Shown piece by piece: positions 40,044-61,832 of a stretch of 64,000 nucleotides of DNA (position 1 is its first letter; every line of letters begins with the position of its first letter). The position numbers were made by a program, and so were the translations under genes. This DNA comes from Ceratodon purpureus (Eukaryota > Streptophyta > Bryopsida > Pseudoditrichales > Ditrichaceae), in assembly GCA_014871385.1 (NCBI GenBank), contig MU104857.1, positions 1-64,000 on the forward strand, given 5' to 3'. The notes beneath the pieces are model-generated. The model did no database searches. It worked only from the letters and a program-made list of their open reading frames with translations, and had not been told where the DNA came from.

Positions 40044-40184
40044 GGTCCTCGTCCCGCCAACGAGGAATTCCCCGTTCACTCTATTCCTGGCACATGGTCG
40101 CTACACTCTTGACCCCCTCCGCGACGGAACACAGCAATCCCGAGTCCCTCCCTCACCATCGCCAATATGCTCCCAGTTTCACTC

Positions 40185-40232: not shown

Positions 40233-41578
40233 TCCGTGTAGGGAATCGCGTGTACACCATGTAGGGAATCGGGTGAGGAGCACTCATGTACTCTAGTCGG
40301 TGTAGACGTTGATAATGAGGTTGGAGCCGTCGCCCACAATTACTCGTCAATGGATTGTACAGCAGCTTTACACCCACAGTACCCCTCTACAGCTATTTTC
40401 ATTTCTGCTGTCATTCCGTTGTGCGTGCAAGCATGTTCTCAGGCTTCGGGTTTGCAGTGGGGTGCGATCACAGACGGGAGCGGCGATTGCAATTTGTTGA
40501 AAGGGGTGCATTGGCAGGTGAATTGAAGATAGAGGGAGTGCAGCGCAGTGTCTGGATTGAGTGGAAGGGTGAGTATTAATTACATTTAACACTACTGAGC
40601 TTCAAGTACCGGTCCAGCGTCGGCCACATTCTCATGCAAGTTCTGGATCCATTCCGCGCACAACCGAAACACAGTACATGCTTTTTTGGTAGGAACACTC
40701 TTGTCGTTCGTGTGTGAACATCTACTTTATATGTGCATTGTTTATCCATTCGTCTGGTCATTGAAGTTGACAATCCAATGGTAAATTGAGCTGCGATTGG
40801 ATGGCTTTGAATGTCAACTCCAGCAAGGCTCTTTGAGGCAAGATCAATCCCTGGGCCGATCGTGAGGACGGTGGATGGTAGGTGCCCTCGAGAAGCCTTG
40901 CCCCATTGCACTCTGGGCCGGCCAAGTACAGCATTCATACACAGAGGGCATCCATGCCATGATGTGTAGTAGGAGAGACTTTTGTTCCCGTGGCGTTAAC
41001 CGGGCCTCACCGTCGAGGTTGTCAACACATAGGGATGGATGGACCGCATCCCTAAGGTGGTGGATATCAACCAGCGCCATAGTTGGGTAAACCATTACTA
41101 AGAGATGGAAAATCAATGTTCCGTTCGGGGTGTAAGACGGCATTATGCACGCCCGCCATCAGACCTGAGGTATGATACTCCAGTAGGCTTGTCGTTGAAG
41201 TCATGCTACTGCGTTCCCCAGACGAAATCTTTTCACTACGTGCATGTTTCACTGTAAAAAAATCCAGTCTTACAATCCGTAATGGGGTTCGGAAGATGCT
41301 CATTGTAGAAAGGAATATCTCCACTGTAAACGAGAACCAAACTGCCTATTCCCGTGATCCGAGCATCACGTGACGGCCTGGGTAACTCCTACATTTAATC
41401 CGCAGTTGTGCATGCACCACAAAACTTACAACTGATCTGGGGGCTCACACATTTTTTTACAAATTTCCTTACACTAATACACCCACCAGAAACCGCACCA
41501 CCGAGAATGTGACTAGGTGCTCGGAGTTCTGCCATGTTTTAGATGACCTCGTCCGGTTGTTGTCGTCGACAACAGGCC
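40233..41578. other. Intergenic region between EDM2 (5') and POT1 (3')
   Basis: No supported gene. A short minus-strand frame at about 40,592-40,665 (CAEWIQNLHENVADAGPVLE then stop) looks protein-like but has no clear acceptor. The rest should include the EDM2 promoter and the POT1 3' untranslated region. Confidence 0.4.
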
Positions 41579-41637
41579 TCACCCTGCAAACCGAGTACCA
41601 AAAACGCGATACCGCCGTGTCTCTCGTGGACGGGCTT
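41579..41637 (-). CDS. POT1: POT1 3' coding remnant beyond element 2
   Basis: Seventeen codons (RPRETRRYRVFGTRFAG) and a TGA, preceded by the left copy of the target duplication (41,633-41,637). S/T-R-R-Y-R-I/V-F-G-T is the conserved C-terminal motif of plant POT1. Continuity with 55,005 proves that the element sits inside this exon. Confidence 0.9.
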
Positions 41638-44600
41638 TGTCGGAACACGGAAACGCAACTAACCTCCGGATAGCGCTCTAATTGAGCGTAAACTTCCGTA
41701 CTGTCACTAGGTTCCGAATATCGTCCAGGGATTCAATAGTGTTTCACCAAGTAGTTACCTCTAATCGTTCCGAGCCTTGCCACTGCTCGGATAGTGTCTT
41801 TGGAACGTAACTTCTTAACTATCTCCTTCTCTATTCTTCTCTCATTAGGTGTTTCGTCCCCAAACCCCAACGTCTCGGATCAGTTACCGTCTCACAACTG
41901 TCCTAGAGTATTCTGGCCAGAAGGTCACACAAACGGTCCTCTCCGATTCGTAGGACTACAACGACAAACCAATCCGGATCTGGGAGAACCAGGATCCGAT
42001 TATCCCTAGGCGACCCGTACCACGTTCCGACTCCCCCTCTCACTATGCACGGAACCTCTTCAGAAGTTCAGGGAGCCCGACCAAGTAGTTCTTGATCCGC
42101 TTCGACCTTAGCGACGGCTATTCCGTATGAGGCTGATTTGGGGACGGAACAGTGAGGCTTCACTCCTACGACAATCCGCTAAATCTTTCCGCTCAATCCC
42201 ATTTCCTTTCCGGTTCGGGTCTCGTTGCAACTCCCATCACCTTCCTATCCGAGCTACAGCGGAACTCTCATATCCTTCCCGGATCATTCACACTTAGCGG
42301 GAAATCAAGCACCGTACTTACAAAACACAAATACTTTACTGATAAGGAGTATAGGGGGAAAACATGCAAAACGAAGACCCGGACCGCATCGCCTGCCCGG
42401 TTTAAGTAAGCAGGGGCTTCCACAAAAGCGGCGGCGCCGGCAGTTCAATCAAAAACCCTAATCCCTAACTACCTACCTAGAATTCTACTTTACGACAAGA
42501 ACGGATCTCTCGATCCGGAATCTGTTCCTATAAATCCGGAAAGTTACGACAAGTGGCAGTGAGAGGAATCTATCACTTCTTTGTCTTCTTGTGGCTCTCC
42601 TGCTCGCGATCCTTCGACCTGGTCACCCGTGGCTCTGATCCGCCCGCCTCTGCTGCTCGTGCCGCCTTGCGCCTAGCACTCCGTTCCGCCTTTGCTTCTC
42701 TTTCCTGGGCCTCCAAGGACAACCGGGTCACGATCCGGGGTTTGGGAGAATTGGGCGATTTCGGAATCATATGTGCGGGAGGGGTTCCGGACGTCGGGGT
42801 CTGGGTTTCAGTTCCGGTGGTCCTGATCGGAGAGCTCCCATGCGTCTCTGAGTCGGACTCGGAAATCGTAATCGGCTCCTTCCTTTTCCGCAACCTCCGG
42901 AACTCACCGACAGTGTTCTGAGGGGAAACTGCTGCTGGCGTTCCGGTGGGAGTAGGCGTCACCGTTCCGGTCTTGGCTGTGGGTGAAGGGGTCAATCCCC
43001 CCTCCTGAGTTACTCGGGTCCGTCCGGGTGGTGAAATAGGTCGTCCCCACTCCGGTCCCGCTATCTCCCCTCGGTAATTCGCAATGATCACCTCCTCTCC
43101 GAGTCGTGGAAGAACATCCGGCGGCACGGTCCGAGTCACCTGTTCCGAGATAGTTCTCTCCTCGACCCGCCTCTCGGTGACTGTCGTTCCGGTCACCTGC
43201 ACCTGCCCGGTGGGGATCGCGCAGCTCTGCTGGACTGTACTGGTTCCGGGTGACACCACCTGTGCTTGGACTTCCCGGATCGCCTCCGCAATCGTCCGAT
43301 TTGTCATGGCGGCCTCTTCGACCGTCATCGGATCTGCTGCTTGGAGGTTACTCCCTATCGGGGTTCGGAACCCCACTCCGCGAGATTCTCCTACCACGGC
43401 ACGAGAGGGCGATCCGGGGAGTGGAAGACCCCGGCCAGCGACTACGAGACTGGGACTTCCGGTGCTCGGATTGAGCAGCTGCCGGACCTTCTTCAGGATC
43501 ATGTTCATCGAGTGCTCGCATTTGGAGAGGATCTTGATGATCTTCTGCTTGTCCTCGAAATCGGCCGGCTGCAATACATTCTCATCAAATAGCCGGGCCT
43601 TGTTGATTACCGCTCCCGAACTTCCCACCAACTTCCGAAGTTCCCCCAAAGTCTCCTCCTGCTCGGCGTGGAACTTACGGATCTCGTCACTCTTCGCCGC
43701 CAGCTCCTTCGTCAGCTCCTGCAACTGAAGCTCCAGCCGCTTCTTCTCACTCCGGAGAGTTGGGGCATCCTTCAACAACTCCACTTCTCGGATCACCTCT
43801 TCCGGTAAGCACCCTCCCAGCGCTGTACAGACCCTCCGGAACAGGGTTTCGATCCGATCGTAAGAAGCTTGCGCCCGGTGAGTCTCCTCCCGAATCCCCC
43901 GAAACAGGTCCACCGGAAATCCCCGATCGGAACTGATCTCTCTCCGTTCCGGATCTCCCCGGGCCGTAGACGGCTCCGCATGTCGTGACGCAGGCTGCTC
44001 CGATCGCGATCTGGACTGAGCCCTAGCAGCGCCAGGGTTCGGAACTTCCCTCGTATCGTCCTCATCCTCCGAGTCCGTTGTATCAGAGGGCTCAACTCGC
44101 GGATCGGGTTCCATTCCGGGCGGAATCTCCGAGAAGTTGAGGCAGTTCTTCGCGTGCGTATACGTCTCGTCCTCCTTATCGGTCAGCAAGTCATTCGCAT
44201 GGTAAAGGTGAAAGAGGTAAGGGGAGAGTGGGGTCGGCTTCTTTCCGATTGTCGGAACCATCTTCTGCACCACTTCCGCCATGAGTGCAGCCCAATTCAC
44301 CGGACGTTCTCCTGTATACGCTCCAAGGATGGTATTCCCGACCGTAATGGTAACTTGTGCCGGTTTCTGCGGATATAGGATCGGGACGAGGAAAGCTAAG
44401 ACCTGCCTCTGCCTCCTATCCTTGCAGGCGTCTATCTCGTATCCATTGTTCCTATGGATCTTCCCGTGGAACCTATCCTGAACGTACTGATCCGTCCGGG
44501 TCGCCCAAAGGAGTCCCTTCTGCTCGAAACCGTAAGCTTCCGCCCACTGTTCCGCATTCCACAGCGTGGGCTTGCCTCGGATCGTACTATCCCACCGGTT

Positions 44601-47600
44601 GTCCGGACCTTCCAGGACCTCCCTCACCATTACCTCGCTCTTCAGTAACCACGGCCGTGCCAACAATCCCTCACACCTCATCCGAGTGAGGTCGGTGATC
44701 AGTTCCTCCATATCCGATTCCTTCACTGGAGTTCCGGGGCTAAGGACGCAACACTGCACGCGTGCCATCTCTACTCCTCACTTCTCTCCCTCTACGATCC
44801 GACAGCAAGAAACCCGGCAATCCAACTGCCGGTGAATCGGAAAAGACAAAGACACCTCACCGCTCTTTCACTCTCTACTACCAGTTCGCAAAAAGGAACT
44901 CCAAACCCTAACACCCTCGCTTATATACCCCAGGCATAATAAACGCTGTGGCGGCCCGTAATTGCAGCCGCCAACGTACCGGGTAAACGCCTATCCGAGT
45001 CATGATGACTTCCGCGTCGCTTCGGATCCTTGACGCGGTTACAGTAACGGTCAGTACTCGGATCGTCCACCCGTTCCGTATCTTATCTTCCGAGTTTCCG
45101 GAATCCAGGTTCCGGGAACTCTTCCTGCGTTAACTGTTTTAACGTTTCTGGAGTATCCGGTTTGCGTTAACTACTAATGCTGCTAGTGTCTGGCCAGTTT
45201 TTACCTAATTAACCAAAAAATTAAAAAATAAATGGAATACTTACGCCGGCTGGGGCTTTTTCCGGTTTATTCTGAGTTTCTCGGATCCCACATTACCCCA
45301 TTTTCAAATGTGAGAGTCCCCGCGAACACTATTCTTCTTCCTCCCCTTCCGGGCTTTCGCTTCCTTCGGTGTCTGTGAACTCCTCAGGGTTGTAATTCTT
45401 CACTCGGGATCCGTTCACCCGGGTTTCGAAGCTATTTCCCTGGAGGTCCGCCAGTTGTAATGATCCGTTCTCAAAGATCCGCGTAACCCGGTAAGGTCCC
45501 ATCCATCTTGTATGTAACTTTCCCGGAAACTTTTGGTGCCGATTATCGTATAAGAGCACCAAGCCTCCTTCTACCACCTTATTGTCCTTAGGAATTTTCT
45601 TGTCGTAGGTCTCCTTACGTTTTGCCTGGACATCTACAGCCTGCTGTAGAGCGCCTCTCCTGACTTCTTCCAGATCCTGTAATGCCACGATCCGGTACCC
45701 CGGATCCTCGACTCTCGTTCCGTGACGGGCAGCCATAACCCGTAAGGTTTCTACCTCCAGCTCCACTCCGTGAACTGCGGATTGTCCAAAGACTAGGAAG
45801 AACGGACTCTTACCCATGGTTTTCTTCTCACTGGTATTGTAGGCGTGTACAGCTGAAGGGAGCTTCCGATCCCAATCCGTCTTATGAGCCGAGACCATCT
45901 TGTTCAGGATCTTTCCGACAATGCCATTGGCTCGTTCCGTCAGCCCATTCGCTTTCGGATTATAAGGGGTCGTCTTCCGATGCTTGATGAGATACCGTTC
46001 CGTGATATTGATGATGACATCGTTCAAGAAATGTTTTCCCCGGTCACTCACCAGTTCTAACGGATGTCCAAATCTCATCATTATTTCTTCAAAGAGAAAT
46101 GTGGCTGCGGCTGCGGCGTCATTCTTCACCGTTGCTCTTGCCTCTACCCATCTGGTCGCATAATCCGTAGCCAGGATAATGTATCTCCTCTTCCGGGCTG
46201 TGACCGGATTGATCGGTCCAATAAAGTCAATCCCCCATTTTTCAAATGGAGCCAAGGGAATAATGGGAGTGAGGGGCCAGTGGGTTCGGAACGAGGGTGC
46301 CCCGGTTCTTTGACACTGGTCACACTGCCCTACGAATTCCTTCACGTCTCGGGAGAGGTAAGGCCACCAATATCCGGCTGATCGGATCCGCTTGATGGTT
46401 GTCTCCGAGGCGAAATGGCCGCCCGAGGGTCCGGCGTGTAAGGCCCTCATGACCTGCCTTCTTTCGGATTCCTCGAGGCACCTCCGCAATACATCATCCG
46501 GTCCCATCCGGAAAAGTACCCCTCGGATCAGTGTGAAAGGAGCTACTGTATTCTGAAATACCATCTTCTCCTCCCGCGTAAATCCCTCCGGGTACCTCCG
46601 TTGTGTTAAATACTGGATAATCTCCGAATAATCGGAGTTCTCCGTTCCGGAAATGTGAAATACCTCCGCCTCTTCCGGAAACTCATCCGGAAACGTGGCG
46701 GTGATGTCCGAGACTGCTTCCGGGCCTCGCATCCTTGACAGGTAGTCGGCGTTGGCATTGGCCTTACCCGGTTTCACTACTACCTCGTAGTTGAATTCCT
46801 GGAGCAGCAAGATCCATCGTGCAATACGCCCTGAGAGATCCGGTTTGTTCACCAAATACTTCAGGGAGTCATGATCCGTATGGAACACGATCTTGTATCC
46901 GAGAAGGTAGTGTCGGAACTTCTTGCACGCGTATACTACCGCCAAGGCTTCCCGTTCAGTGGTAGTATATTTCCGTTCCGCAAGGCTCATCTGCCTGCTA
47001 GCATAATAGATCGGATGCTCCTTCCGATCCTCCCCTTGCTGCCACAGAATCGCCCCTAGGCACCACCCGGAAGCGTCGATTGTCACATGGAATTCCTTCG
47101 ACCAATCCGGTGCTGATAGGATCGGAGCGGTGGTCAGGGCCTTCTTCAGTTCCTCGAACGCTTGCTGTCTCCGTTCCGTCCACAAAAACTCTTCTTCCTT
47201 CTTCAACAGTTCCGTTAATGGGGCTGCCAATTTGGCATACGCAATAATAAACCTCCGGTAGTATCCGACGCATCCTAGGAATCCCCGGACCTCTCGGACG
47301 TTGGTGGGAGACACTAGAATAAGGATAGCTCGTACCTTATCCGAATCGACTTCCAACCCGTTCCGACTTACGATGTGTCCGAGAAGAATTCCGGAAATCA
47401 TCCCCATAAAACATTTTCCGGGGTGTAATTTCAGTCCGGTTTCCCTGCACCTCTGGAAGGTCCTTCGGAGGTACTCGAGATGTTCCTTCCACTTACTGAA
47501 CACCGCGAAGTCATCGATGAAGACTTCTAGAAAATGCCTCAAGAAATCTCGGAAAATATCCACCATCAGCCTTTGGAATGTTCCGGGAGCGTTACACAGT

Positions 47601-50600
47601 CCGAAGGGCATTCTGTTGAAGGCGAACGTCCCCCATTCCGTGGTGAAGGTCGTCTTCAGCTGATCTTCTTCCCGGATCGACACTTGGTTGTAACCGGAAA
47701 ATCCATCAAGAAAGCTGTAGCACTCCTGCCCTGCCACGTGATCGAGGATAATGTCCGTAAAAGGTAACGGAAAGTAATCCTTCTTTGTGGCCGCATTCAG
47801 TTTCCGAAAATCTTGACAAACTCGGATCTTGACTTTCCCATCCGAGCCAACTTTCTTCGGAACGACGACTATGGGCGATACCCACTCGGAATTGTTTACT
47901 GGATAAATGAATCCGGCTTTCAGGAGGCTATCAATCTCTTCCTTCACCATCAGAGAATACTTCGGGTTGAGCCTGTACTGGCGTTGTCTGACCGGAACTG
48001 ATCCGTCAACCAAGTCTATATGATGTTGGCCGAGTTCCGGAGGTATTCCCTTGAGGTCGGATGGTGACCAAGCGAATACGTCCAAATATTCCTTTAATAA
48101 ATCCACATACTCCTTTCTCTGCTCCTTGCTCATGCTTCGCCCTAGCAGAAACGTCTTTCCGGGGGCTACTTCCACCTTCTCATAGTCGGATGGTTTCACA
48201 ACGTTCTTGACTCGTTCCGATTCCCGTTCCTCTCCCTGATCCGTCCATGCGCTCCATACCCGGACAGGGGTGTCCGGATCGAGACCCATGGCGGGCAGGT
48301 TTCCCTCCTCGACCTGTTGTCGGAACCATTCGGCTGAGAGTGGAACACTTCCCTCTCCGAGTGAGCGATCCTCTAGTACCGGGAATTTCACGCGCTCCGA
48401 TGATGGTTGGGGTTGCTCACTGATCGGATTATGAAATCGGAAGTCATCCTCGGTAACTTCCGAGAACTGATTCACGAAATAACTAAATACTTCGTCATCC
48501 TCCTCTTCCGGGTCGGACCAGTCAGACGTATACCCATCCGAGCCACTGGTCTCCCCTAGATATCCATCCATCTTCCACGGAATCCGCTGATTGGTTTTTC
48601 CGAGCACGAACTCCTTGGCTCCCCAATCAACGAGGACTCGTGCCATGTATAGCCAGGGCCTTCCTAACAACATCGGGAAGGGACGGCCCGTACTAACTCG
48701 GATTATCACGTAATTCAAGAGGTAGGTTACCTCTCCGATTGTGGTCGGAACTTGGGACAACCTTCCCACGGGTTTAACCCTAGATTGATCCGCCATTCGT
48801 AACACCTGATCGGTGGATTCGAACGAGGTGTATCCGAGTTCAAAGGCCGTATCCTCCAACATCAGGTTCACACCGGATCCTCCATCTACCGGAACTTTCG
48901 GGATAGCACATCCTTCTATTAGCACCGTCAGTTCCGGGGCTCCATGATCCTCAACCTGTAAGAAGTTAGTAGCTACAGACGGAAGCTTCACCCCTCGACG
49001 CCTCCGCTTCGTCCATGCCTCTCGGATTACCTTCTGGTAATTCGCGTTGTCATGGAGCAACTGTCCAATCGTGACATTTGCCTTGAGGGATTTGATGTCC
49101 CCAAGAATGTCATACTCGTCCACTCTGGGATCGGAAGGAATAACCACCGGAACGTCATCAAACCGGACCGAAGGCTTGGTGATCTTCCGGACGGGGGAAT
49201 CCGTGAGTTCTTTCCGAACTTCCTCGCTGATATCTTCCGGAAGGTTCCCTCCTTCCACCCCATTTTCCGCTCTTGGACGGTCATTTTCTTCTGGTAAAGC
49301 TCTGGTTACCGTAGAGGGTTCGGATCCCGAATCCGAATCCACTCTTCTGGATCTTACCCTCCTCCTGGTCTTCCGGGATTTCGGAAGCTCCGGTTCCTGG
49401 GCACGTTCTCTAGCGGAACTACGGGTTGATATTCTGTGTACTGGTACCTCCGCGCCCTCCTGTAGTTCCGTCACGAACCGTCATTTGTCCGGATTCTCTA
49501 TCCCACCCGAGTGACCGTAGTTTAGCCCAGTCATCTCTCTCGGAGGGACCTCCACCTGTTTGAAAGTCGGACGGGGTTGTGCCGGTTTGGCACACTGAGG
49601 AGCCGTATGACCGTACTCTCCGCAATTTTGGCACGGAAGGATCCGTGGTGCTCCCTGCCCCTGCCGCTCAAACGGACAATTAGGCGCGTAATGATCCGGG
49701 CTCCCACAGTTAAAGCAGTACCCGTGGGTCGGCTTCTGGTACATCGGCCTACCCGGAACGTTCGGTGGGATCCGGTATCCGGCGGGAGGACGAGCTATCT
49801 GGATCGGAGCTTTCCCTCGCCCGTAAGTGGTCTGAACCTGATATACAGGTTGGTACTCCTCCATCTGAAACTCCTCCTCTTCCGGATAGGCAAAGTATAC
49901 CTCTTCTTCCGGATGGACGTAGTGAATTCGTTTCTGGCGGGGTTCAGTACACTCCGGAGGATAATGTCCTTGCTTTCCGCAGTTAGCACACCACACATTA
50001 GCTCTGCTGGTTGGAATCATCTTACGAGGTTTCCGATTCTCGGAAAGGTGGACGTTGAGTTCGGCAATCGATTCTCGGATCTCCTTCATCTCCTTCATGA
50101 CCTTCCGAGAATCGTCATCCTCCACTTTCACCTTGATCAACTCTCGGTTCCGTCTTGGCCGGGTGTCTCTACTGGAACCCCCTCGGCGTTTCGAGGCTCC
50201 CCTGGAGTCCTCTTCCGACTGATCGGAACTGGATGAAGTGGAATCGCTCTTACTGGTAGAGTCGGAATCTTCCGAGGAGGACTCGTGCCTCCGACGGCGC
50301 TCTCTCTCCTTCCGGATCTTCTTGCCCCTCTTCTCGGTATGCTTCAGAGACTTCCGTAGAGATTGGGCCGAGTTCTCATAGTTCTGAGCCGCTTCCACGG
50401 CTTCCTGAAGTGTGGCGGGACGGGTTTGTCGGATCTGAAACCCCATCTCCTCTGGAAATCCGGCGACAAACCATTCCACTTGTACACTCGGAGCTATGGC
50501 TGTAGTGAGTTTCTGTATGAGCGCCTTTACTCTCTGACTGTACTTCCGTACTGACTCGGAAGATCTCATCGTCATCCGACTCAGCTTTCCGAGTGCGCGA

Positions 50601-53600
50601 GCCTCTCCTCCAGCCTCACGGAACGTACGTCGGAACAAGGTCACGAAACTGGTCCAGTCGTTACGTGTGCGTTCCGGAACGTCTTGGTACCACTGTAGAG
50701 CTTCTCCCTTCAGAAGACCTTGGAATATCCTTCTCTTCGCATCCGGATCTTCCTGATTGGCCAGAGCAATGGATTCGAACTCACAGAGCCATTCGTCCAC
50801 GTCTTGACTTCCGTCTCCTTTGAATCGGTTGTACTTCAGTCGGGTAGAGGGTGCCATCGGATTGTCTTCCTCGTCTTCTTCCTCTTCCTCGGTCTCCTCT
50901 TCTACTCCTGCGTCGGCTTCGACCTCGTCAGCTTCAACTTCTTCTTCTTCCGGGTCTGGAGCTGTACCTGCTCCGGCTGTGGAGGTTCCGGCCAACGACA
51001 CCACGATTACGTCTCCTTCTCGTTCTACAGCAGTCTGGATCCGGGGAAGTAGATTCGTTCCCGGTAGATCGTGTACCAAAACTTTTCCCCTCTTCTGTAG
51101 CAACCGAGTGGATCTTCTTCCCCCTAACTCTTCCGGTTGCGCCCCAACCATGGAAGAGATTGGGAATTCTTCTTCCGATTCCTCGGAAGGCAGGATCTGC
51201 ACGTAAGACTTCCGCCTACCGCATATCCACCTAAATGAAGCCTTCACGGTCTGACTCCACTTTTCTTCAAATCTGCGTTCACGTATCTCCCGAGTATCCA
51301 CCTGGTTCACAGCTTATCGAATCCCCGGCAGCGGCGCCAGATTTTTACGTGTCGGAACACGGAAACGCAACTAACCTCCGGATAGCGCTCTAATTGAGCG
51401 TAAACTTCCGTACTGTCACTAGGTTCCGAATATCGTCCAGGGATTCAATAGTGTTTCACCAAGTAGTTACCTCTAATCGTTCCGAGCCTTGCCACTGCTC
51501 GGATAGTGTCTTTGGAACGTAACTTCTTAACTATCTCCTTCTCTATTCTTCTCTCATTAGGTGTTTCGTCCCCAAACCCCAACGTCTCGGATCAGTTACC
51601 GTCTCACAACTGTCCTAGAGTATTCTGGCCAGAAGGTCACACAAACGGTCCTCTCCGATTCGTAGGACTACAACGACAAACCAATCCGGATCTGGGAGAA
51701 CCAGGATCCGATTATCCCTAGGCGACCCGTACCACGTTCCGACTCCCCCTCTCACTATGCACGGAACCTCTTCAGAAGTTCAGGGAGCCCGACCAAGTAG
51801 TTCTTGATCCGCTTCGACCTTAGCGACGGCTATTCCGTATGAGGCTGATTTGGGGACGGAACAGTGAGGCTTCACTCCTACGACAATCCGCTAAATCTTT
51901 CCGCTCAATCCCATTTCCTTTCCGGTTCGGGTCTCGTTGCAACTCCCATCACCTTCCTATCCGAGCTACAGCGGAACTCTCATATCCTTCCCGGATCATT
52001 CACACTTAGCGGGAAATCAAGCACCGTACTTACAAAACACAAATACTTTACTGATAAGGAGTATAGGGGGAAAACATGCAAAACGAAGACCCGGACCGCA
52101 TCGCCTGCCCGGTTTAAGTAAGCAGGGGCTTCCACAAAAGCGGCGGCGCCGGCAGTTCAATCAAAAACCCTAATCCCTAACTACCTACCTAGAATTCTAC
52201 TTTACGACAAGAACGGATCTCTCGATCCGGAATCTGTTCCTATAAATCCGGAAAGTTACGACAAGTGGCAGTGAGAGGAATCTATCACTTCTTTGTCTTC
52301 TTGTGGCTCTCCTGCTCGCGATCCTTCGACCTGGTCACCCGTGGCTCTGATCCGCCCGCCTCTGCTGCTCGTGCCGCCTTGCGCCTAGCACTCCGTTCCG
52401 CCTTTGCTTCTCTTTCCTGGGCCTCCAAGGACAACCGGGTCACGATCCGGGGTTTGGGAGAATTGGGCGATTTCGGAATCATATGTGCGGGAGGGGTTCC
52501 GGACGTCGGGGTCTGGGTTTCAGTTCCGGTGGTCCTGATCGGAGAGCTCCCATGCGTCTCTGAGTCGGACTCGGAAATCGTAATCGGCTCCTTCCTTTTC
52601 CGCAACCTCCGGAACTCACCGACAGTGTTCTGAGGGGAAACTGCTGCTGGCGTTCCGGTGGGAGTAGGCGTCACCGTTCCGGTCTTGGCTGTGGGTGAAG
52701 GGGTCAATCCCCCCTCCTGAGTTACTCGGGTCCGTCCGGGTGGTGAAATAGGTCGTCCCCACTCCGGTCCCGCTATCTCCCCTCGGTAATTCGCAATGAT
52801 CACCTCCTCTCCGAGTCGTGGAAGAACATCCGGCGGCACGGTCCGAGTCACCTGTTCCGAGATAGTTCTCTCCTCGACCCGCCTCTCGGTGACTGTCGTT
52901 CCGGTCACCTGCACCTGCCCGGTGGGGATCGCGCAGCTCTGCTGGACTGTACTGGTTCCGGGTGACACCACCTGTGCTTGGACTTCCCGGATCGCCTCCG
53001 CAATCGTCCGATTTGTCATGGCGGCCTCTTCGACCGTCATCGGATCTGCTGCTTGGAGGTTACTCCCTATCGGGGTTCGGAACCCCACTCCGCGAGATTC
53101 TCCTACCACGGCACGAGAGGGCGATCCGGGGAGTGGAAGACCCCGGCCAGCGACTACGAGACTGGGACTTCCGGTGCTCGGATTGAGCAGCTGCCGGACC
53201 TTCTTCAGGATCATGTTCATCGAGTGCTCGCATTTGGAGAGGATCTTGATGATCTTCTGCTTGTCCTCGAAATCGGCCGGCTGCAATACATTCTCATCAA
53301 ATAGCCGGGCCTTGTTGATTACCGCTCCCGAACTTCCCACCAACTTCCGAAGTTCCCCCAAAGTCTCCTCCTGCTCGGCGTGGAACTTACGGATCTCGTC
53401 ACTCTTCGCCGCCAGCTCCTTCGTCAGCTCCTGCAACTGAAGCTCCAGCCGCTTCTTCTCACTCCGGAGAGTTGGGGCATCCTTCAACAACTCCACTTCT
53501 CGGATCACCTCTTCCGGTAAGCACCCTCCCAGCGCTGTACAGACCCTCCGGAACAGGGTTTCGATCCGATCGTAAGAAGCTTGCGCCCGGTGAGTCTCCT

Positions 53601-56600
53601 CCCGAATCCCCCGAAACAGGTCCACCGGAAATCCCCGATCGGAACTGATCTCTCTCCGTTCCGGATCTCCCCGGGCCGTAGACGGCTCCGCATGTCGTGA
53701 CGCAGGCTGCTCCGATCGCGATCTGGACTGAGCCCTAGCAGCGCCAGGGTTCGGAACTTCCCTCGTATCGTCCTCATCCTCCGAGTCCGTTGTATCAGAG
53801 GGCTCAACTCGCGGATCGGGTTCCATTCCGGGCGGAATCTCCGAGAAGTTGAGGCAGTTCTTCGCGTGCGTATACGTCTCGTCCTCCTTATCGGTCAGCA
53901 AGTCATTCGCATGGTAAAGGTGAAAGAGGTAAGGGGAGAGTGGGGTCGGCTTCTTTCCGATTGTCGGAACCATCTTCTGCACCACTTCCGCCATGAGTGC
54001 AGCCCAATTCACCGGACGTTCTCCTGTATACGCTCCAAGGATGGTATTCCCGACCGTAATGGTAACTTGTGCCGGTTTCTGCGGATATAGGATCGGGACG
54101 AGGAAAGCTAAGACCTGCCTCTGCCTCCTATCCTTGCAGGCGTCTATCTCGTATCCATTGTTCCTATGGATCTTCCCGTGGAACCTATCCTGAACGTACT
54201 GATCCGTCCGGGTCGCCCAAAGGAGTCCCTTCTGCTCGAAACCGTAAGCTTCCGCCCACTGTTCCGCATTCCACAGCGTGGGCTTGCCTCGGATCGTACT
54301 ATCCCACCGGTTGTCCGGACCTTCCAGGACCTCCCTCACCATTACCTCGCTCTTCAGTAACCACGGCCGTGCCAACAATCCCTCACACCTCATCCGAGTG
54401 AGGTCGGTGATCAGTTCCTCCATATCCGATTCCTTCACTGGAGTTCCGGGGCTAAGGACGCAACACTGCACGCGTGCCATCTCTACTCCTCACTTCTCTC
54501 CCTCTACGATCCGACAGCAAGAAACCCGGCAATCCAACTGCCGGTGAATCGGAAAAGACAAAGACACCTCACCGCTCTTTCACTCTCTACTACCAGTTCG
54601 CAAAAAGGAACTCCAAACCCTAACACCCTCGCTTATATACCCCAGGCATAATAAACGCTGTGGCGGCCCGTAATTGCAGCCGCCAACGTACCGGGTAAAC
54701 GCCTATCCGAGTCATGATGACTTCCGCGTCGCTTCGGATCCTTGACGCGGTTACAGTAACGGTCAGTACTCGGATCGTCCACCCGTTCCGTATCTTATCT
54801 TCCGAGTTTCCGGAATCCAGGTTCCGGGAACTCTTCCTGCGTTAACTGTTTTAACGTTTCTGGAGTATCCGGTTTGCGTTAACTACTAATGCTGCTAGTG
54901 TCTGGCCAGTTTTTACCTAATTAACCAAAAAATTAAAAAATAAATGGAATACTTACGCCGGCTGGGGCTTTTTCCGGTTTATTCTGAGTTTCTCGGATCC
55001 CACAGGCTTTGTCCAGGTAATAAGACTTCAGGCAACAGGTGACCCAAGGAGGATTTGGAGGACCATGCTCGCGGACCCCGAGGAGCCGATCCACTTTACG
55101 CTTCAGGACTACCACCGTGTCTCCTTGCCGTCGTAAATTGGCAGCAGGGCACCCACCGAAGAATTCAACCTGCAGTAAAACGAAGAAGGGGAGTCGCATC
55201 ATTCACGCACCCTAAACCATGGGAAGGATTTTCAAAGACAAAACTTCTGGACTCCCCTCCAGTAGACGAGACTTACTGCATCCTCGCCATACAGAAATGC
55301 GTGAAGACGGGCTGTTGGATCCTCCAGCGTGAGTCGAACAACGAACACAAAGTCTCCCTGGTCCGGGTGATCTATCGGTTGTGCCGCACTGCCATCAGTG
55401 GGCTCACAAAAATCAAGCACATCCGATGGCCAGGTGGCCATGACTCGCACCATACATCGGAACTTGTAAGTCACCTGCATAAGAAACATACAGAAGTCAA
55501 CAATCACGACCACACCTGTCGAAACTCGCAGCGTCCCGCCGAAACATCCGACGACCGACGAGGCCCAGAGAGAGTACGGAACGAACCGATGTCACACTGC
55601 ACTACGACCCTGCCTATTCTCAGCAATACAGGCTCTGTGCTGAACTCAAAATTCTCCAGCCGAGAATAAGTGCAGAGAGTGACCTCTGGATATGTGAGAA
55701 CCTCTCGTAAAGCGGAAAGCTTGACATGGTCGTAGCCCGTGACTGCAAAAGCACGTTGCCTTAATATTCCCACATCTGTAGCTTAATGTTCCATGTAGAG
55801 CTGAAGAGACAGACAACAACTCCTATCTGAATGGAGATTCGCACCTCAGTTCCGTAATCCGTGGACGTTACGATGATAGTGTTGAGCGTCAACACCAACA
55901 CGGGTATGTTTACCGCTCGGATTGTTATTGAAATAGTTCCTTACAAGTTGCATAGCGGAAGGTCAAAAAACCTAGAATCGTCAGGAGTCGCAAAGGAAGG
56001 GACAGACAACATACCTAACATAGATTGAGGAGGTTGAGGACACCATTGAGGGAGACGGAGCGCCTCTGAAGCAAGGCGCTCTTCATATGCTCTACAACGA
56101 CCACAGATGTTTTAACGCAAGTGAAGATCTAAAACCTTGTGCATTGTCCACGGGGATAACGCCGAAGAGTGCGATCTGAATGGGTGAAGGAACGATAAAC
56201 AGTCGAATACATACAAAATCCATACGATATATCAATTCCAAAAGAACATCCGTGCTCTCATTGCACTCAACAACGTGCATTTAAACATGTTCAATTACTT
56301 TCCTACCTTTCACAGTTTTGCACAGTCTGGGTGCTGGGGGAGAGAATGCCAATCTTGCTACAAGGATAGAGGACACCTTCATACAACCCTTTCCGAACCC
56401 TAAAGCGAATGTTCCGTAACTTCACCCAGTCACCGGCCACAGGTAACAGGGGCCTGGAATCATTTTCAGGCATACCGTCGGGAACCAAGGGTAGGACGGT
56501 GCCCAAAGCCGGAAAACCACGCATCACATCAACCGGTACTGCCACCTGTTTTGCAATCCATAAATCTTGTCCGGGATCTCCGTTCTCGCTGTGATCCCTA

Positions 56601-58482
56601 CCACAATAAAAGATTAAGAAACCACAATAAAAGATTAAGAAATCACTGCCTCCCGCTGCTCGCAATATCTGCAACTTGGAAGTACATTACGTTCAACTAC
56701 GATGCAATTTCCCAATCCGGTTTACGGAGTGAAGAGTATTGGCACACCGCTGCGACCAAGTAAAAATCAAGGAGCGCTATCAGCTTATGGCCAAGAGAAA
56801 TTTAACCGATTTGTCTACTCACAGCTGCTTGCAAAACATACTCTGCCGCCAGCACCAACTATGGAATCAGATTAACTAATCCCGGAAGACAAAGTCTCTG
56901 TTCCTTATGACAGAACCGCCCAACAGGACGGTGACAAGTTCATGAACCCTAACCTCTCAATATGCGCGGTTCGTGAACTTACGAGGGATTTAGGCACGCA
57001 GGGCTTGCATCAGTTCCATCCCAAACGTGCATGATAACTTTATTCTCCGCACTTTGCTCGCTCACGAACAATATCTGCAAAATCCAAGTGCCCAATGTTA
57101 CGGTCCCTGTAGGCCACCACCAATCATTCCAATTTGGTGCGTAAGTAATCATCTCGGGGCTCTAGACGTCCAACACCACTACACCCTAAATCCAAGACTA
57201 ACTAGGCGTCGGCTTTCCCCGACAATCCCACTTCCGGCACTACACAATATATACAACTTATTACTAGTATATAGATACCAGAACACGCTTTTCCCAAATG
57301 TACCACATGTATGAAATATAGTAAGGATGTTCAATTCTGAACCCGAACGAAGACGGGGGGGGGGGACAACAGAGTATTCACCTTACAGCAAACATCGCAG
57401 TAGGAGTCCACGGCAACATCTTTAATCTGCTTCATATATTTGCTAGTCCCTGCAACTGTTGCGAGGCAAAACAGCTTGGTTGTAAAAGAAGCTGCCATGA
57501 AACGAATGTTTGCAATAGGGGCAGTCTATAGGAAACGGGAAGAGGAACATCTTGTCATCACAGGCCTGACGTTGATTCATATATCGAAGTGAATTTCACC
57601 TCCTCAAACAAATACTGAATTGTTGGGGAGGGCCGGGAAGTGAACGTACGCGTGTCAATGGAGTGACTTGAAGCCCACGTGCGAAGAAGGCCGACGATGT
57701 TACGATCACTCGCTTCCATGGTAAAACTGGTGCCAGACGGATTTTGGTACGGTACATAGTCATCTCCTTCACACCCCCGAAACAACACAAATGATGATCT
57801 CGATCTCTCGTTTCCGCTTGCCTGAGGAGCATCCGAGTGGGTCTTCATCTGCCAGCAATTTACACTTGGTCACTTCACATTCCCCGTGCTTTCGAAACCA
57901 TTCATCAACGGAAACCACTTGATGGGACCAGCGCATCAAATGCAACAGACAGCCTAGACTGGCAAGGGGACTAGCGGCAAACGGAATGGATGTCGGAGCC
58001 TGCCACCGGCCTGCTCTTACTAGCAGAAGGAACACCCCACGATGCAGCGATTGATAAGCAGCTGGTCTACCTGAAGGCGATGAAACCTGATCACATCACC
58101 GAGATCCTTCACGCGTGGCATCTGGTCAAGACGTGGTGCAAAGAAGAGCACCCGTAGCCCCGGGCTGTTGTACGACGTATCTATCACCGTCATTGTACAC
58201 AAGTAATCTGCCATCACCGAGACATCACCCCAGTCGTGAATATCACACCTCCAACAAATAAAAGGGCACCACATAGATGTTCATTATATGAGGCAGGAGG
58301 CACGGAAACTCAGTCCAAACTCGTTCTCCGGCAAACTGCGTGGAGAGCAAACCTCGTCCTCGGGTGGGCTTTGGCTGCTCATACGCGGCCACAACGCCAT
58401 AGAAGTGCACCGTCTCCCCTACAAGCTTCACGGCTTCTGCGAGCGTGGCGTAATTGTAACCCTCTCGCTCCCGATTTGACAT
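41579..58482 (-). CDS. POT1: POT1-like telomere end-binding protein, last exon split by a retrotransposon
   Basis: Ten exons join in phase: 58,482-58,353, 58,207-58,071, 57,848-57,600, 57,426-57,382, 57,074-56,983, 56,597-56,307, 56,091-56,015, 55,742-55,684, 55,474-55,277 and 55,169-55,005. The last continues at 41,632-41,579 on the far side of element 2. The native product is about 497 residues, normal for POT1. OB-fold 1: YATLAEAVKLVGETVHFYGV, YLCTMTVIDTSYNSPGL, SSFVLFRG. OB-fold 2: VIMHVWDGTDASP, GDWVKLRNIRFRVRKGLYEG. C-terminal region: VVRLTLEDPTARLHAFLYG, NPPWVTCCLKSYYLDK, then RRYRVFGTRFAG and stop. POT1 binds the telomeric G-strand and protects chromosome ends. The split lies 17 codons before the stop; beyond it the frame runs about two dozen codons into the LTR. 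Confidence 0.93.
41633..41637. repeat. Target-site duplication GGCTT (left) of element 2
   Basis: GGCTT precedes the LTR TG at 41,638 and recurs at 55,005-55,009 after the LTR CA. One copy belongs to the original POT1 exon. Confidence 0.92.
41638..45292 (-). repeat. Element 2, 3' LTR (3,655 bp)
   Basis: Full-length match to the 5' LTR, at a constant offset of 9,712 bp. Confidence 0.93.
42573..44768 (-). CDS. Element 2 LTR-encoded protein, 731 aa (3' LTR copy)
   Basis: Predicted product identical to the 5' LTR copy. Confidence 0.82.
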   Translation of the reverse strand: MARVQCCVLSPGTPVKESDMEELITDLTRMRCEGLLARPWLLKSEVMVREVLEGPDNRWDSTIRGKPTLWNAEQWAEAYGFEQKGLLWATRTDQYVQDRFHGKIHRNNGYEIDACKDRRQRQVLAFLVPILYPQKPAQVTITVGNTILGAYTGERPVNWAALMAEVVQKMVPTIGKKPTPLSPYLFHLYHANDLLTDKEDETYTHAKNCLNFSEIPPGMEPDPRVEPSDTTDSEDEDDTREVPNPGAARAQSRSRSEQPASRHAEPSTARGDPERREISSDRGFPVDLFRGIREETHRAQASYDRIETLFRRVCTALGGCLPEEVIREVELLKDAPTLRSEKKRLELQLQELTKELAAKSDEIRKFHAEQEETLGELRKLVGSSGAVINKARLFDENVLQPADFEDKQKIIKILSKCEHSMNMILKKVRQLLNPSTGSPSLVVAGRGLPLPGSPSRAVVGESRGVGFRTPIGSNLQAADPMTVEEAAMTNRTIAEAIREVQAQVVSPGTSTVQQSCAIPTGQVQVTGTTVTERRVEERTISEQVTRTVPPDVLPRLGEEVIIANYRGEIAGPEWGRPISPPGRTRVTQEGGLTPSPTAKTGTVTPTPTGTPAAVSPQNTVGEFRRLRKRKEPITISESDSETHGSSPIRTTGTETQTPTSGTPPAHMIPKSPNSPKPRIVTRLSLEAQEREAKAERSARRKAARAAEAGGSEPRVTRSKDREQESHKKTKK
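45329..49474 (-). CDS. pol: Element 2 pol (protease, RT, RNase H, integrase)
   Basis: About 1,381 residues with the same domain order as element 1: protease-like VPVDGGSGVNLMLED, RT FLDGFSGYNQVSI and FIDDF, RNase H TIDASGWCLGAIL, integrase HHCC (HAGPSGGHFAS...CDQCQRTG) with WGIDFIGPI, VSDRGKHFLN and NPKANGLTERANGI, and the GPY-type end MGPYRVTRIFENGSLQL. No chromodomain. Confidence 0.93.
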   Translation of the reverse strand: MTELQEGAEVPVHRISTRSSARERAQEPELPKSRKTRRRVRSRRVDSDSGSEPSTVTRALPEENDRPRAENGVEGGNLPEDISEEVRKELTDSPVRKITKPSVRFDDVPVVIPSDPRVDEYDILGDIKSLKANVTIGQLLHDNANYQKVIREAWTKRRRRGVKLPSVATNFLQVEDHGAPELTVLIEGCAIPKVPVDGGSGVNLMLEDTAFELGYTSFESTDQVLRMADQSRVKPVGRLSQVPTTIGEVTYLLNYVIIRVSTGRPFPMLLGRPWLYMARVLVDWGAKEFVLGKTNQRIPWKMDGYLGETSGSDGYTSDWSDPEEEDDEVFSYFVNQFSEVTEDDFRFHNPISEQPQPSSERVKFPVLEDRSLGEGSVPLSAEWFRQQVEEGNLPAMGLDPDTPVRVWSAWTDQGEERESERVKNVVKPSDYEKVEVAPGKTFLLGRSMSKEQRKEYVDLLKEYLDVFAWSPSDLKGIPPELGQHHIDLVDGSVPVRQRQYRLNPKYSLMVKEEIDSLLKAGFIYPVNNSEWVSPIVVVPKKVGSDGKVKIRVCQDFRKLNAATKKDYFPLPFTDIILDHVAGQECYSFLDGFSGYNQVSIREEDQLKTTFTTEWGTFAFNRMPFGLCNAPGTFQRLMVDIFRDFLRHFLEVFIDDFAVFSKWKEHLEYLRRTFQRCRETGLKLHPGKCFMGMISGILLGHIVSRNGLEVDSDKVRAILILVSPTNVREVRGFLGCVGYYRRFIIAYAKLAAPLTELLKKEEEFLWTERRQQAFEELKKALTTAPILSAPDWSKEFHVTIDASGWCLGAILWQQGEDRKEHPIYYASRQMSLAERKYTTTEREALAVVYACKKFRHYLLGYKIVFHTDHDSLKYLVNKPDLSGRIARWILLLQEFNYEVVVKPGKANANADYLSRMRGPEAVSDITATFPDEFPEEAEVFHISGTENSDYSEIIQYLTQRRYPEGFTREEKMVFQNTVAPFTLIRGVLFRMGPDDVLRRCLEESERRQVMRALHAGPSGGHFASETTIKRIRSAGYWWPYLSRDVKEFVGQCDQCQRTGAPSFRTHWPLTPIIPLAPFEKWGIDFIGPINPVTARKRRYIILATDYATRWVEARATVKNDAAAAATFLFEEIMMRFGHPLELVSDRGKHFLNDVIINITERYLIKHRKTTPYNPKANGLTERANGIVGKILNKMVSAHKTDWDRKLPSAVHAYNTSEKKTMGKSPFFLVFGQSAVHGVELEVETLRVMAARHGTRVEDPGYRIVALQDLEEVRRGALQQAVDVQAKRKETYDKKIPKDNKVVEGGLVLLYDNRHQKFPGKLHTRWMGPYRVTRIFENGSLQLADLQGNSFETRVNGSRVKNYNPEEFTDTEGSESPEGEEEE
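49481..51310 (-). CDS. gag: Element 2 gag
   Basis: About 609 codons. The frame opens just after the primer site without an ATG at its very start; the first ATG is inside. An acidic N-terminal extension precedes the capsid-like core (FKGDGSQDVDEWLCEF, GEALQWYQDVPE, EARALGKLSRMTM). A Ser/Arg-rich linker and three CCHC knuckles (CANCGKQGHYPPEC, CFNCGSPDHYAPNC, CQNCGEYGHTAPQC) follow. A single UGA separates it from pol in the same frame. Confidence 0.9.
   Translation of the reverse strand: MNQVDTREIRERRFEEKWSQTVKASFRWICGRRKSYVQILPSEESEEEFPISSMVGAQPEELGGRRSTRLLQKRGKVLVHDLPGTNLLPRIQTAVEREGDVIVVSLAGTSTAGAGTAPDPEEEEVEADEVEADAGVEEETEEEEEDEEDNPMAPSTRLKYNRFKGDGSQDVDEWLCEFESIALANQEDPDAKRRIFQGLLKGEALQWYQDVPERTRNDWTSFVTLFRRTFREAGGEARALGKLSRMTMRSSESVRKYSQRVKALIQKLTTAIAPSVQVEWFVAGFPEEMGFQIRQTRPATLQEAVEAAQNYENSAQSLRKSLKHTEKRGKKIRKERERRRRHESSSEDSDSTSKSDSTSSSSDQSEEDSRGASKRRGGSSRDTRPRRNRELIKVKVEDDDSRKVMKEMKEIRESIAELNVHLSENRKPRKMIPTSRANVWCANCGKQGHYPPECTEPRQKRIHYVHPEEEVYFAYPEEEEFQMEEYQPVYQVQTTYGRGKAPIQIARPPAGYRIPPNVPGRPMYQKPTHGYCFNCGSPDHYAPNCPFERQGQGAPRILPCQNCGEYGHTAPQCAKPAQPRPTFKQVEVPPREMTGLNYGHSGGIENPDK
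51322..51339 (-). promoter_or_regulatory. Primer-binding site of element 2 (tRNA-Asp type)
   Basis: The same 18 bases as in element 1 (TGGCGCCGCTGCCGGGGA), ten bases inside the LTR. Confidence 0.75.
52285..54480 (-). CDS. Element 2 LTR-encoded protein, 731 aa (5' LTR copy)
   Basis: ATG-initiated and wholly within the LTR, in gag-pol sense. Its N-terminal domain aligns with the 622-aa protein of element 1: TIRGKPTLWNAEQWAEAYGF against TIRGEPDKWSAQLWRETYGF, FLVPILYPQKPAQVT against FMNPIFHPEKPKRIT, RPVNWAALMAEVV against FTVDWGVMMKTIV, and FHLYHANDLLTDKE against IHLYRTKGLLTAEE. Next come an acidic linker, a coiled coil (KKRLELQLQELTKELAAKSD), a Thr/Pro-rich stretch and a basic tail (EREAKAERSARRKAARAAE). 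Conservation across diverged families implies selection on the protein. No known domain recognised. Confidence 0.82.
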   Translation of the reverse strand: MARVQCCVLSPGTPVKESDMEELITDLTRMRCEGLLARPWLLKSEVMVREVLEGPDNRWDSTIRGKPTLWNAEQWAEAYGFEQKGLLWATRTDQYVQDRFHGKIHRNNGYEIDACKDRRQRQVLAFLVPILYPQKPAQVTITVGNTILGAYTGERPVNWAALMAEVVQKMVPTIGKKPTPLSPYLFHLYHANDLLTDKEDETYTHAKNCLNFSEIPPGMEPDPRVEPSDTTDSEDEDDTREVPNPGAARAQSRSRSEQPASRHAEPSTARGDPERREISSDRGFPVDLFRGIREETHRAQASYDRIETLFRRVCTALGGCLPEEVIREVELLKDAPTLRSEKKRLELQLQELTKELAAKSDEIRKFHAEQEETLGELRKLVGSSGAVINKARLFDENVLQPADFEDKQKIIKILSKCEHSMNMILKKVRQLLNPSTGSPSLVVAGRGLPLPGSPSRAVVGESRGVGFRTPIGSNLQAADPMTVEEAAMTNRTIAEAIREVQAQVVSPGTSTVQQSCAIPTGQVQVTGTTVTERRVEERTISEQVTRTVPPDVLPRLGEEVIIANYRGEIAGPEWGRPISPPGRTRVTQEGGLTPSPTAKTGTVTPTPTGTPAAVSPQNTVGEFRRLRKRKEPITISESDSETHGSSPIRTTGTETQTPTSGTPPAHMIPKSPNSPKPRIVTRLSLEAQEREAKAERSARRKAARAAEAGGSEPRVTRSKDREQESHKKTKK
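54632..54639 (-). promoter_or_regulatory. TATA box of the element 2 LTR
   Basis: TATATAAG on the minus strand, about 155 bp upstream of the LTR-encoded ATG, the same arrangement as element 1. The copy in the 3' LTR is at 44,920-44,927. Confidence 0.7.
55005..55169 (-). CDS. POT1: POT1 last exon, 5' part
   Basis: After a TTACTGCAG acceptor the exon encodes 55 residues, from VEFFGGCP through RKVDRLLGVREHGP and NPPWVTCCLKSYYLDKA. The right target duplication (GGCTT, 55,005-55,009) encodes part of its last two codons. Confidence 0.9.
56600..56641. repeat. 21-bp tandem repeat at a POT1 splice acceptor
   Basis: ACCACAATAAAAGATTAAGA plus A occurs twice in tandem just upstream (minus sense) of POT1 exon 6. 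In sense it duplicates the pyrimidine-rich TTCTTAATCTTTTATTGTGG tract before the TAG acceptor. Confidence 0.85.
57355..57365. repeat. Poly-G run in a POT1 intron
   Basis: A homopolymer run of about 11 G next to exon 4. Confidence 0.7.
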
Positions 58483-60484: not shown

Positions 60485-61759
60485 CTACAGACGTTTCCCA
60501 TCGCCCACACAAACTGGAGCACGTGGCTGGGCATCCTTCTGCAATATGTCCCTGACACAGAGGTCCTGGTGTGTTGCCCGATAGTGGTGGCCGTACCGTG
60601 GATTCGTTTCTCTCAGTGGATGTTCAGGTAAGATGTCCGCAGTGGCGCTCACCACGTTGTATATCATGACCTTTCCTGATGAATTCGAGAATAACACCAC
60701 CGAGCTGCAGGAGCCATTGAAGTTCAAACGCAATGCCAAACAGGTAATGGCAAGACCACGTTTTCTGATTCGTTCACCAAAAAGATGGGAGAGCGTTGAT
60801 GCCGGGATTCGGAGGACAATCCTGGATGTTTTCTCTAAAACTTGAATCTCGACCATCTCCAACATCATTGCACCTGAAGTAGATGGGGCAGACCGCCATA
60901 ACATCACGAACAACTTGCCGCCGCTGACCACGAGTTCCACGAGATCCGCTGCCGGAAGGTTTTCGAAAACCGTGCTCCAAGTATCCTTTTCGATATCATA
61001 CGACGCAAGAAAGTGCCCCAATGAACCAAACACAGTGAAAATTGCATACAAGCCCTGTTGGAACACTACAGCCGACCTTGCAAAGTTGTTGTCTGAACCT
61101 CCCCTCGGCGGCTGACTTGCACAACGCCATTTGTTTGTGGATGATACATACATCCACAGACACGGATGGAAACCTGTTTTTCCAAAACCAGAGTTGTCAA
61201 ACAGGAAGATTCTAAAGACGCGAGATCCACGGTCTGCAGCCACGACCACTATGGAACGCACCTTGCCTTCATTTGGGCAAGGAACAAGCATCCATCTCAT
61301 CTTCAATATTGGATCAGACACCTGTATACAACAAACGGATGGACCGCCATGATTGCTGCCCTCGTCCTCGACTGGACAACAAAACTCAGCAACAAGGCCG
61401 TCGCCCATAGCCACGTCTCTTGTATCGAACCCTTGGTCGACAGAGCCTTTGATCAAATACCAGCGCCTCTCGTCCAGATCTAGAAAACAAGTCATCCCTC
61501 TCACGGAGCGGTCAATTCTGGTGTGAGGATCTGAATGAAATTTGGTAGAGAAACACACTCCGAGGCCACGTCCCACCCAGGTCTGCTCGTAAGAGTCGTG
61601 GAACCTAGAACTACAGATAATGTGGTTCCACCCCTTACACACAGTCCGCATCCTACACAACACCGGCAACGGCAAAAAGGCAAGCACGCGCTCCATAACC
61701 TCCGATGGCAGAATGCTTTGCCGCACGCCATGGATTGAACGCGAACTAGTTCCAGCCAT
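60485..61759 (-). CDS. F-box / kelch-like protein, intronless
   Basis: 424 codons from an ATG at 61,759. The F-box lies at residues ~16-60 (LPSEVMERVLAFLPLPVLCR, then VCKGWNHIICSSRFHD). Beta-propeller-like blades follow, with recurring W and G pairs (WMYVSSTNKW, YDIEKDTWSTVFENLP, LVVSGGKLFVMLWR), as in plant F-box/kelch proteins that act as substrate adaptors of SCF ubiquitin ligases. The substrate cannot be told. One uninterrupted exon contrasts with the intron-rich neighbours. Confidence 0.88.
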   Translation of the reverse strand: MAGTSSRSIHGVRQSILPSEVMERVLAFLPLPVLCRMRTVCKGWNHIICSSRFHDSYEQTWVGRGLGVCFSTKFHSDPHTRIDRSVRGMTCFLDLDERRWYLIKGSVDQGFDTRDVAMGDGLVAEFCCPVEDEGSNHGGPSVCCIQVSDPILKMRWMLVPCPNEGKVRSIVVVAADRGSRVFRIFLFDNSGFGKTGFHPCLWMYVSSTNKWRCASQPPRGGSDNNFARSAVVFQQGLYAIFTVFGSLGHFLASYDIEKDTWSTVFENLPAADLVELVVSGGKLFVMLWRSAPSTSGAMMLEMVEIQVLEKTSRIVLRIPASTLSHLFGERIRKRGLAITCLALRLNFNGSCSSVVLFSNSSGKVMIYNVVSATADILPEHPLRETNPRYGHHYRATHQDLCVRDILQKDAQPRAPVCVGDGKRL

Positions 61760-61832
61760 GACTATCTCTGCACACCATTACATTCCAACAAAATTACGTT
61801 ATAACACATTGGTGCATAGCGCAAAACATGAG

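Follow-up and report, generated by a model that had tools for sequence, protein, structure and literature searches.

A Ty3/gypsy retrotransposon splits the final coding exon at one of nine POT1 loci of the moss Ceratodon purpureus

In the moss Physcomitrium patens, POT1 is described as a single-copy gene, and plants that have lost it survive long-term culture, showing sterility and chromosome fusions (PMC3400083, in its available portion); severe developmental defects and telomere shortening are also attributed to this loss in the accessible text of PMC10856949. Here, we analyze a 64-kb stretch of DNA from the moss Ceratodon purpureus (hereafter, the window), corresponding to the first 64 kb of the unplaced contig C16 (89,299 bp) from an assembly that totals 362.5 Mb in 151 contigs, in which the last coding exon of a POT1 gene is split by a long terminal repeat (LTR) retrotransposon. 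A first-pass annotation had correctly assigned this DNA to a moss and considered POT1 essential for telomere protection in moss, a term that is too strong given the survival reported for Physcomitrium without POT1 (same portion of PMC3400083).

The POT1 of the window is alike that of P. patens in the domains PF02765, PF16686, and PF25507 and in the conserved FGT end, with 66% identity when an early, approximate spliced model was used as query (the Pfam and homologue queries were all run with this model, the corrected one being the ten-exon model of Table 1). However, unlike the single-copy gene of P. patens (PMC3400083, as available), POT1 is found at nine loci in the Ceratodon assembly, one of them split by the retrotransposon. 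This scenario resembles that of Brassicaceae and maize, where POT1 is also duplicated (in the same portion of PMC3400083), but the Ceratodon loci are of several ages, include near-identical blocks, and in five of the six placed copies lie near scaffold ends. The explanation that we consider likely is a recent insertion of a full-length Ty3/gypsy element, in the orientation of the gene, into the final coding exon of POT1 in one copy of a duplicated block, the function being supplied by the other copies. The insertion, its target-site duplication, the empty sites in contigs C3 and C50, and eight intact POT1 coding sequences are all seen in the assembled sequence.

The split exon and the inserted element

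In the spliced model, the POT1 gene of the window comprises ten exons on the minus strand, from 58482 to 55005, with AG..GT borders. The first-pass annotation proposed that the frame running up to SYYLDKA at 55005 resumes at 41632 as RPRETRRYRVFGTRFAG followed by a stop codon, with GGCTT duplicated on both sides of a 13.4-kb separation, and this reading is borne out. Both copies of GGCTT are present, the separation corresponds to an element of 13,367 bp, and removal of the element along with one GGCTT yields an empty-site frame in which SYYLDKA is directly followed by RPRETRRYRVFGTRFAG and the stop, encoding 491 residues. The rejoined tail is no product of chance, as it matches the tails of the near-identical C3 and C50 copies and, with a difference of one residue, that of an annotated Ceratodon POT1 (P0001). 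As it stands, the window copy lacks the complete conserved C terminus (the last 17 residues), which is present in the C3 and C50 copies. With the element in place, 23 LTR codons and a stop replace the 17 native residues, close to the two dozen codons anticipated, and the product would have 497 residues. P0001 is unlikely to owe its uninterrupted frame to a modelled intron that spans this element, because GT-AG or GC-AG ends are absent from all ten intron placements that would give the exact empty-site mRNA.

On its own strand, the element starts with TG and ends with CA, and both the gag and the pol open reading frames (ORFs) are open. The domains of pol follow the Ty3/gypsy order, with reverse transcriptase (RT; RVT_1) at residues 541-693, RNase H at 767-896, and integrase at 1004-1175. 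A candidate primer-binding site, TGGCGCCGCTGCCGGGGA, is located 10 bases inside the border of the 5' LTR; by the resemblance of this site, the element may be Tat/Ogre-like. In gag, in the RT-RNase H-integrase order, in the TG..CA LTRs, and in the 5-bp duplication, the element is alike Ty3/gypsy LTR retrotransposons of plants, whereas it differs from them in carrying a 734-codon ORF in each 3.6-kb LTR. A Pfam search with this ORF gave no match, and a protein database search returned 12 relatives. Also, a neighbouring related element carries a 629-codon LTR ORF that can be aligned with it. Since the TATATA motif at 54639 is upstream of the 734-codon ORF, this would probably be the ORF that comes first in the element's RNA.

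The retrotransposon had been described as young, and the comparison of its LTRs agrees with this, no difference being observed along 3,655 bp. Had the insertion occurred at the time of the split between the C16 and C3 blocks, about 10 LTR differences would be expected (P = 4e-5), taking every host difference as real. Under the same assumption, a second LTR element of the window (element 2) shows one difference against 9.7 expected at that age (P = 6e-4). At assumed rates of 5e-9 to 1e-8 changes per site per year, the absence of differences gives a 95% upper age bound of roughly 40,000-80,000 years for the POT1 insertion. Moreover, a 500-base LTR query matches at least 40 places in the genome with 98-100% identity, the two LTRs of the element included, which is a lower bound because the 40 scored matches were drawn from 624 first-look candidates. 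Judged from its identical LTRs and its dispersed near-identical relatives, the insertion is young and recently active.

Table 1. Position of the POT1 gene, the inserted element, and the neighbouring gene in the window
Feature	Coordinates	Strand	Basis or remark
Complete Ty3/gypsy LTR retrotransposon, 13,367 bp	41638..55004	-	POT1's own transcriptional direction; absent from C3 and C50 sites
5' LTR, 3,655 bp	51350..55004	-	Self-comparison; TATATA starts 54639, AATAAA starts 54983
3' LTR, 3,655 bp	41638..45292	-	Self-comparison; identical to 5' LTR
Target-site duplication GGCTT, left copy	41633..41637	.	Flank comparison
Target-site duplication GGCTT, right copy	55005..55009	.	Last bases of interrupted exon; single in C3 and C50 empty sites
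gag ORF, 610 codons	49484..51313	-	Retrotrans_gag, Ty3_capsid, zinc knuckles
pol ORF, 1,383 codons	45332..49480	-	Order RT, RNase H, integrase
734-codon ORF within 5' LTR	52288..54489	-	Second copy 42576-44777 in 3' LTR
POT1 exon 1	58353..58482	-	ATG at 58482; equal length and GT donor in 8 other copies
POT1 exon 2	58071..58207	-	AG..GT borders
POT1 exon 3	57650..57848	-	AG..GT borders
POT1 exon 4	57382..57455	-	AG..GT borders
POT1 exon 5	56983..57074	-	AG..GT borders
POT1 exon 6	56307..56597	-	AG..GT borders
POT1 exon 7	56015..56091	-	AG..GT borders
POT1 exon 8	55684..55742	-	AG..GT borders
POT1 exon 9	55277..55474	-	AG..GT borders
POT1 exon 10, 5' part, ending ...SYYLDKA at insertion	55005..55169	-	Spliced frame
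POT1 exon 10, detached 3' part, 17 native codons and stop (RPRETRRYRVFGTRFAG)	41579..41632	-	Spliced frame
LTR stretch entered by interrupted POT1 frame, 23 codons and stop	54933..55004	-	Frame reading
F-box gene, POT1 neighbour, synteny marker	60488..61762	-	Gene comparison

Empty sites and other POT1 copies in the assembly

Near-identical POT1 genes with a single GGCTT and an uninterrupted exon are found at C3:24,985,920 and C50:29,931-30,626. Small gaps excepted, contig C16 is collinear along its entire length with C3:24,959,599-25,021,015 and also with positions 5,318-45,909 of C50, the remainder of which continues in line with C3. The three blocks match at about 99% in the collinear stretches, C16 and C50 being short unplaced contigs of 89 and 46 kb, and both the POT1 element and element 2 are missing from C3 and from C50. 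Separately, C50 lacks two segments that are present in C16, one of ~0.5 kb just past the POT1 stop (window 40757-41251) and another of ~9 kb (C16 62454-71477).

An uninterrupted orthologue is also found among other Ceratodon gene records, as M758_N017100, which differs from the window POT1 in 4 of 491 residues. The next-numbered gene, M758_N017200, corresponds to the window F-box gene at 99% identity and shares a 117,075-bp contig with M758_N017100. The protein read from the POT1 of contig C9 is identical to the record KC19_8G001300, and the assembly appears to be that with the KC19 gene names; from their names and residue differences, the M758 records would belong to another gene set than KC19.

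A genome search for a second POT1, as suggested in the first-pass annotation, returned 12 places: besides the window itself, nine substantial matches elsewhere and, on C5, two short ones. When gene models were projected on the nine, eight had an intact coding sequence and conserved splice sites (C3, C50, C4, C7, two on C9, C31, and C42), which together with the split copy of C16 make nine POT1 loci; a second query, taken from the middle of the gene, gave nine loci again. These eight coding sequences encode four proteins, one common to C3 and C50, one from C4, one from C7, and one common to the two C9 copies, C31, and C42. The protein of C16 departs from that of C3 at residues 100 and 452. Between paralogue types, the ratio of nonsynonymous to synonymous substitution rates is 0.19-0.38, which fits purifying selection. 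A further POT1-like stretch, at C13:16307400-16312100, is partly N and in the rest frameshifted at its 3' end, being possibly a decayed copy. In consequence, the statement that POT1 is split holds for the last exon of the window copy, but this is one locus of nine, and the loss of a single-copy POT1 is rejected by the eight intact coding sequences. The reservation that another copy or allele might exist does apply, as two near-identical empty-site versions are among the intact ones.

The gametophyte of mosses is haploid, so the genotyping of both alleles proposed earlier fits this plant poorly, and for the extra POT1 versions a reading as duplicates, or as another genotype, is preferable to one as alleles. 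In the second case, C16 and C50 would belong to further genotypes, be it a sibling, a plant present as a contaminant, or cells mutated in the culture, and the insertion would be a polymorphism between haploid genotypes, a scenario that we regard as rather unlikely, albeit the strongest of the alternatives. The low and almost symmetrical divergence among the blocks, of only 0.25-0.28% (167/60,388 bases substituted for C16-C3, 100/40,472 for C16-C50, and 127/45,833 for C50-C3), is in line with it, as is the short length of C16 and C50. Other observations also weigh against local duplication. The unique substitutions (55 in C16, 74 in C3, and 45 in C50) indicate near-equal divergence and 72 of the 94 indels between C16 and C3 are of a single base, so residual read errors or a second genotype may be present in the sequenced culture. 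Also, among the control loci, C2 carries two diverged F-box copies that score alike (1343 and 1312 bits) and could be a twin pair on the same chromosome. Unplaced contigs, few control loci, and possible read errors thus leave room for a mixture.

Nonetheless, a mixture is expected to produce extra versions genome-wide and, among the few loci checked, near-identical versions on short contigs are limited to the C3-type and C9-type POT1 blocks, with no near-identical twin for the C4 and C7 loci. For the F-box gene, the query gave 15 matches, corresponding to C16, C3, and C50 at 99-100% and to 12 diverged copies, none of which is on a small contig. Moreover, the two C9 copies share one chromosome-scale contig. 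Because the near-identical short-contig versions are limited to these two block types among the loci checked, local duplication is clearly favoured over mixed genotypes, and the three near-identical blocks would be recent segmental duplicates in one haploid genome. As the POT1 block exists in at least three versions, the insertion was most likely tolerated.

The lost C-terminal tail and the fate of the split copy

On the spliced POT1, tail included, PF02765, PF16686, and PF25507 (OB1, OB2, and C-terminal OB) are all above cut-off. The homologue search gave 126 protein matches at E <= 0.001, the nearest three, among the 120 of 126 listed, being from Ceratodon purpureus. Human POT1 and Oxytricha TEBP-alpha are matched by profile, and also by fold when the model of P0001 is used. 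Of the 51 residues conserved to 95% or more across 117 other homologues, the window copy retains 50, and at the single deviating position the three further Ceratodon proteins in the comparison deviate as well. This suggests that the window POT1 was under constraint until the insertion. An old decayed pseudogene is ruled out by the open frame and by these same conserved sites.

Regarding the tail, 118 of the 120 homologues aligned (of the 126 matched) have residues at 10 or more of its 17 positions. T487 is conserved in 118/118, R480 in 115/118, and F485 in 113/118, the remaining positions varying freely. The AlphaFold2 model of the uninterrupted orthologue P0001, built with 45 sequences (mean predicted local distance difference test [pLDDT] of 84.9 and predicted template modeling score of 0.74), ends in a predicted strand at residues 480-485, with a mean pLDDT of 95 for residues 481-490. 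In the profile alignment, the tail matches human POT1 up to residue 631, in the third OB fold (OB3), a domain also matched in the structures 5h65 and 5un7. According to this model, the loss of the tail removes the predicted last strand of OB3. Counted along the profile alignment, human Q623 falls in the strand aligned with the lost one, and Q623H is reported in "FM", taken here as familial melanoma (PMC5394241, available portion). The same portion of that source states that human POT1 is destabilised by OB3 mutations disrupting TPP1 binding, and that some OB3 mutations are dominant negatives. By analogy, the loss of the tail should harm the Ceratodon protein. If transcribed, the split copy would give a 497-residue protein with the last OB3 strand swapped for 23 LTR-coded residues, which may be unstable or weak; alternatively, little mRNA may be produced since transcription enters the LTR.

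This product could also act as a dominant-negative or modified POT1, having its DNA-binding folds intact and OB3 broken. The frame is open for 23 codons into the LTR, and the dominant-negative human mutations and the position of Q623 in the aligned strand (PMC5394241, as available) point in that direction. However, an AATAAA at base 22 of the LTR, before the stop codon, could end the mRNA early, and we find such an activity improbable. Even less probable is that most POT1 function came from the window copy and that its disruption caused a significant loss or change of telomere protection. The deep conservation of the tail and the constraint evident from the 50 of 51 near-invariant residues agree with a formerly functional gene, but eight intact copies are present in the same assembly and, in a tree of 11 chosen proteins, the shortest Ceratodon branch is that of the chromosome-4 type (0.021), compared with 0.13 for the branch to the window pair. 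Finally, an assembly error that wrongly joined the element into the exon, conceivable for a short contig with LTR repeats (which often cause misjoins), is rejected as highly improbable because a misjoin would not yield an exact GGCTT duplication that restores the frame on removal, and element 2 repeats the pattern of duplication and empty sites on the same contig.

The preferred explanation, an insertion into one of several POT1 copies, then implies that the other copies would supply the function and the plant would tolerate the split one. In Ceratodon, the intact copies should make the loss of one POT1 tolerable, and because they exist the case carries little weight as a broken telomere gene. 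We regard it as a routine case of a transposon recently inserted into a gene copy that is redundant, and alarm about the telomeres is unsupported.

Neighbouring features and the POT1 family of Ceratodon

Other features are found in the window. Element 2 (23810-39109; 15.3 kb), the other young LTR element of the window and likewise missing from C3 and C50, has LTRs of 3,516 bp with an ORF inside; it shows a 5-bp duplication, CCTTC, and is located ~180 bp beyond the end of an ORF at 39288-40100. Inside it, a tandem duplication with 99.9% identity (29940-32322 and 32342-34724) doubles part of the coding region. Also, an ORF at 22204-23193 shows NSD-type PHD fingers and presumably resembles plant EDM2-like proteins.

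Concerning the position of the POT1 copies, the distance to the nearer scaffold end is 148 kb for C13, 175 kb for C3, 310 and 515 kb for the two C9 copies, and 529 kb for C7, while the C4 copy lies at 2.24 Mb. Five of the six placed copies, counting the doubtful one on C13, are within 0.53 Mb of a scaffold end. For five independent loci, the probability that four or more fall within 530 kb is 4e-5, a post hoc value whose threshold was picked after the data were seen. On the other hand, no telomere repeat array is present in the last 10 kb of the C3 scaffold, and for this reason "subtelomeric" means here only near a scaffold end. We tentatively propose that POT1 has become a gene family in Ceratodon purpureus, its copies being located on blocks that duplicate near chromosome ends.

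POT1 is amplified in Ceratodon purpureus, unlike in Physcomitrium, where it is single-copy, which is unexpected. Literature listings on POT1 duplication and retrotransposon insertion in plants and on POT1 paralogues of Ceratodon, along with the available portions of PMC10856949 and PMC10167121, gave no earlier report of this amplification or of this insertion. Telomere length is reported to differ among Ceratodon strains, although which of two was longer varied with the enzymes (PMC10856949, accessible text). If POT1 were indeed a family on duplicating blocks near chromosome ends, its copy number would be linked to chromosome-end turnover, retrotransposons could break or alter single copies without loss of protection, and POT1 dose could differ among strains. 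A haploid moss with POT1 intact in eight coding sequences and naturally split in one further copy provides a ready system for asking why POT1 was amplified and whether its dose or variants set telomere length, whereas the split copy itself allows one to ask if losing the last OB3 strand alone destroys function.

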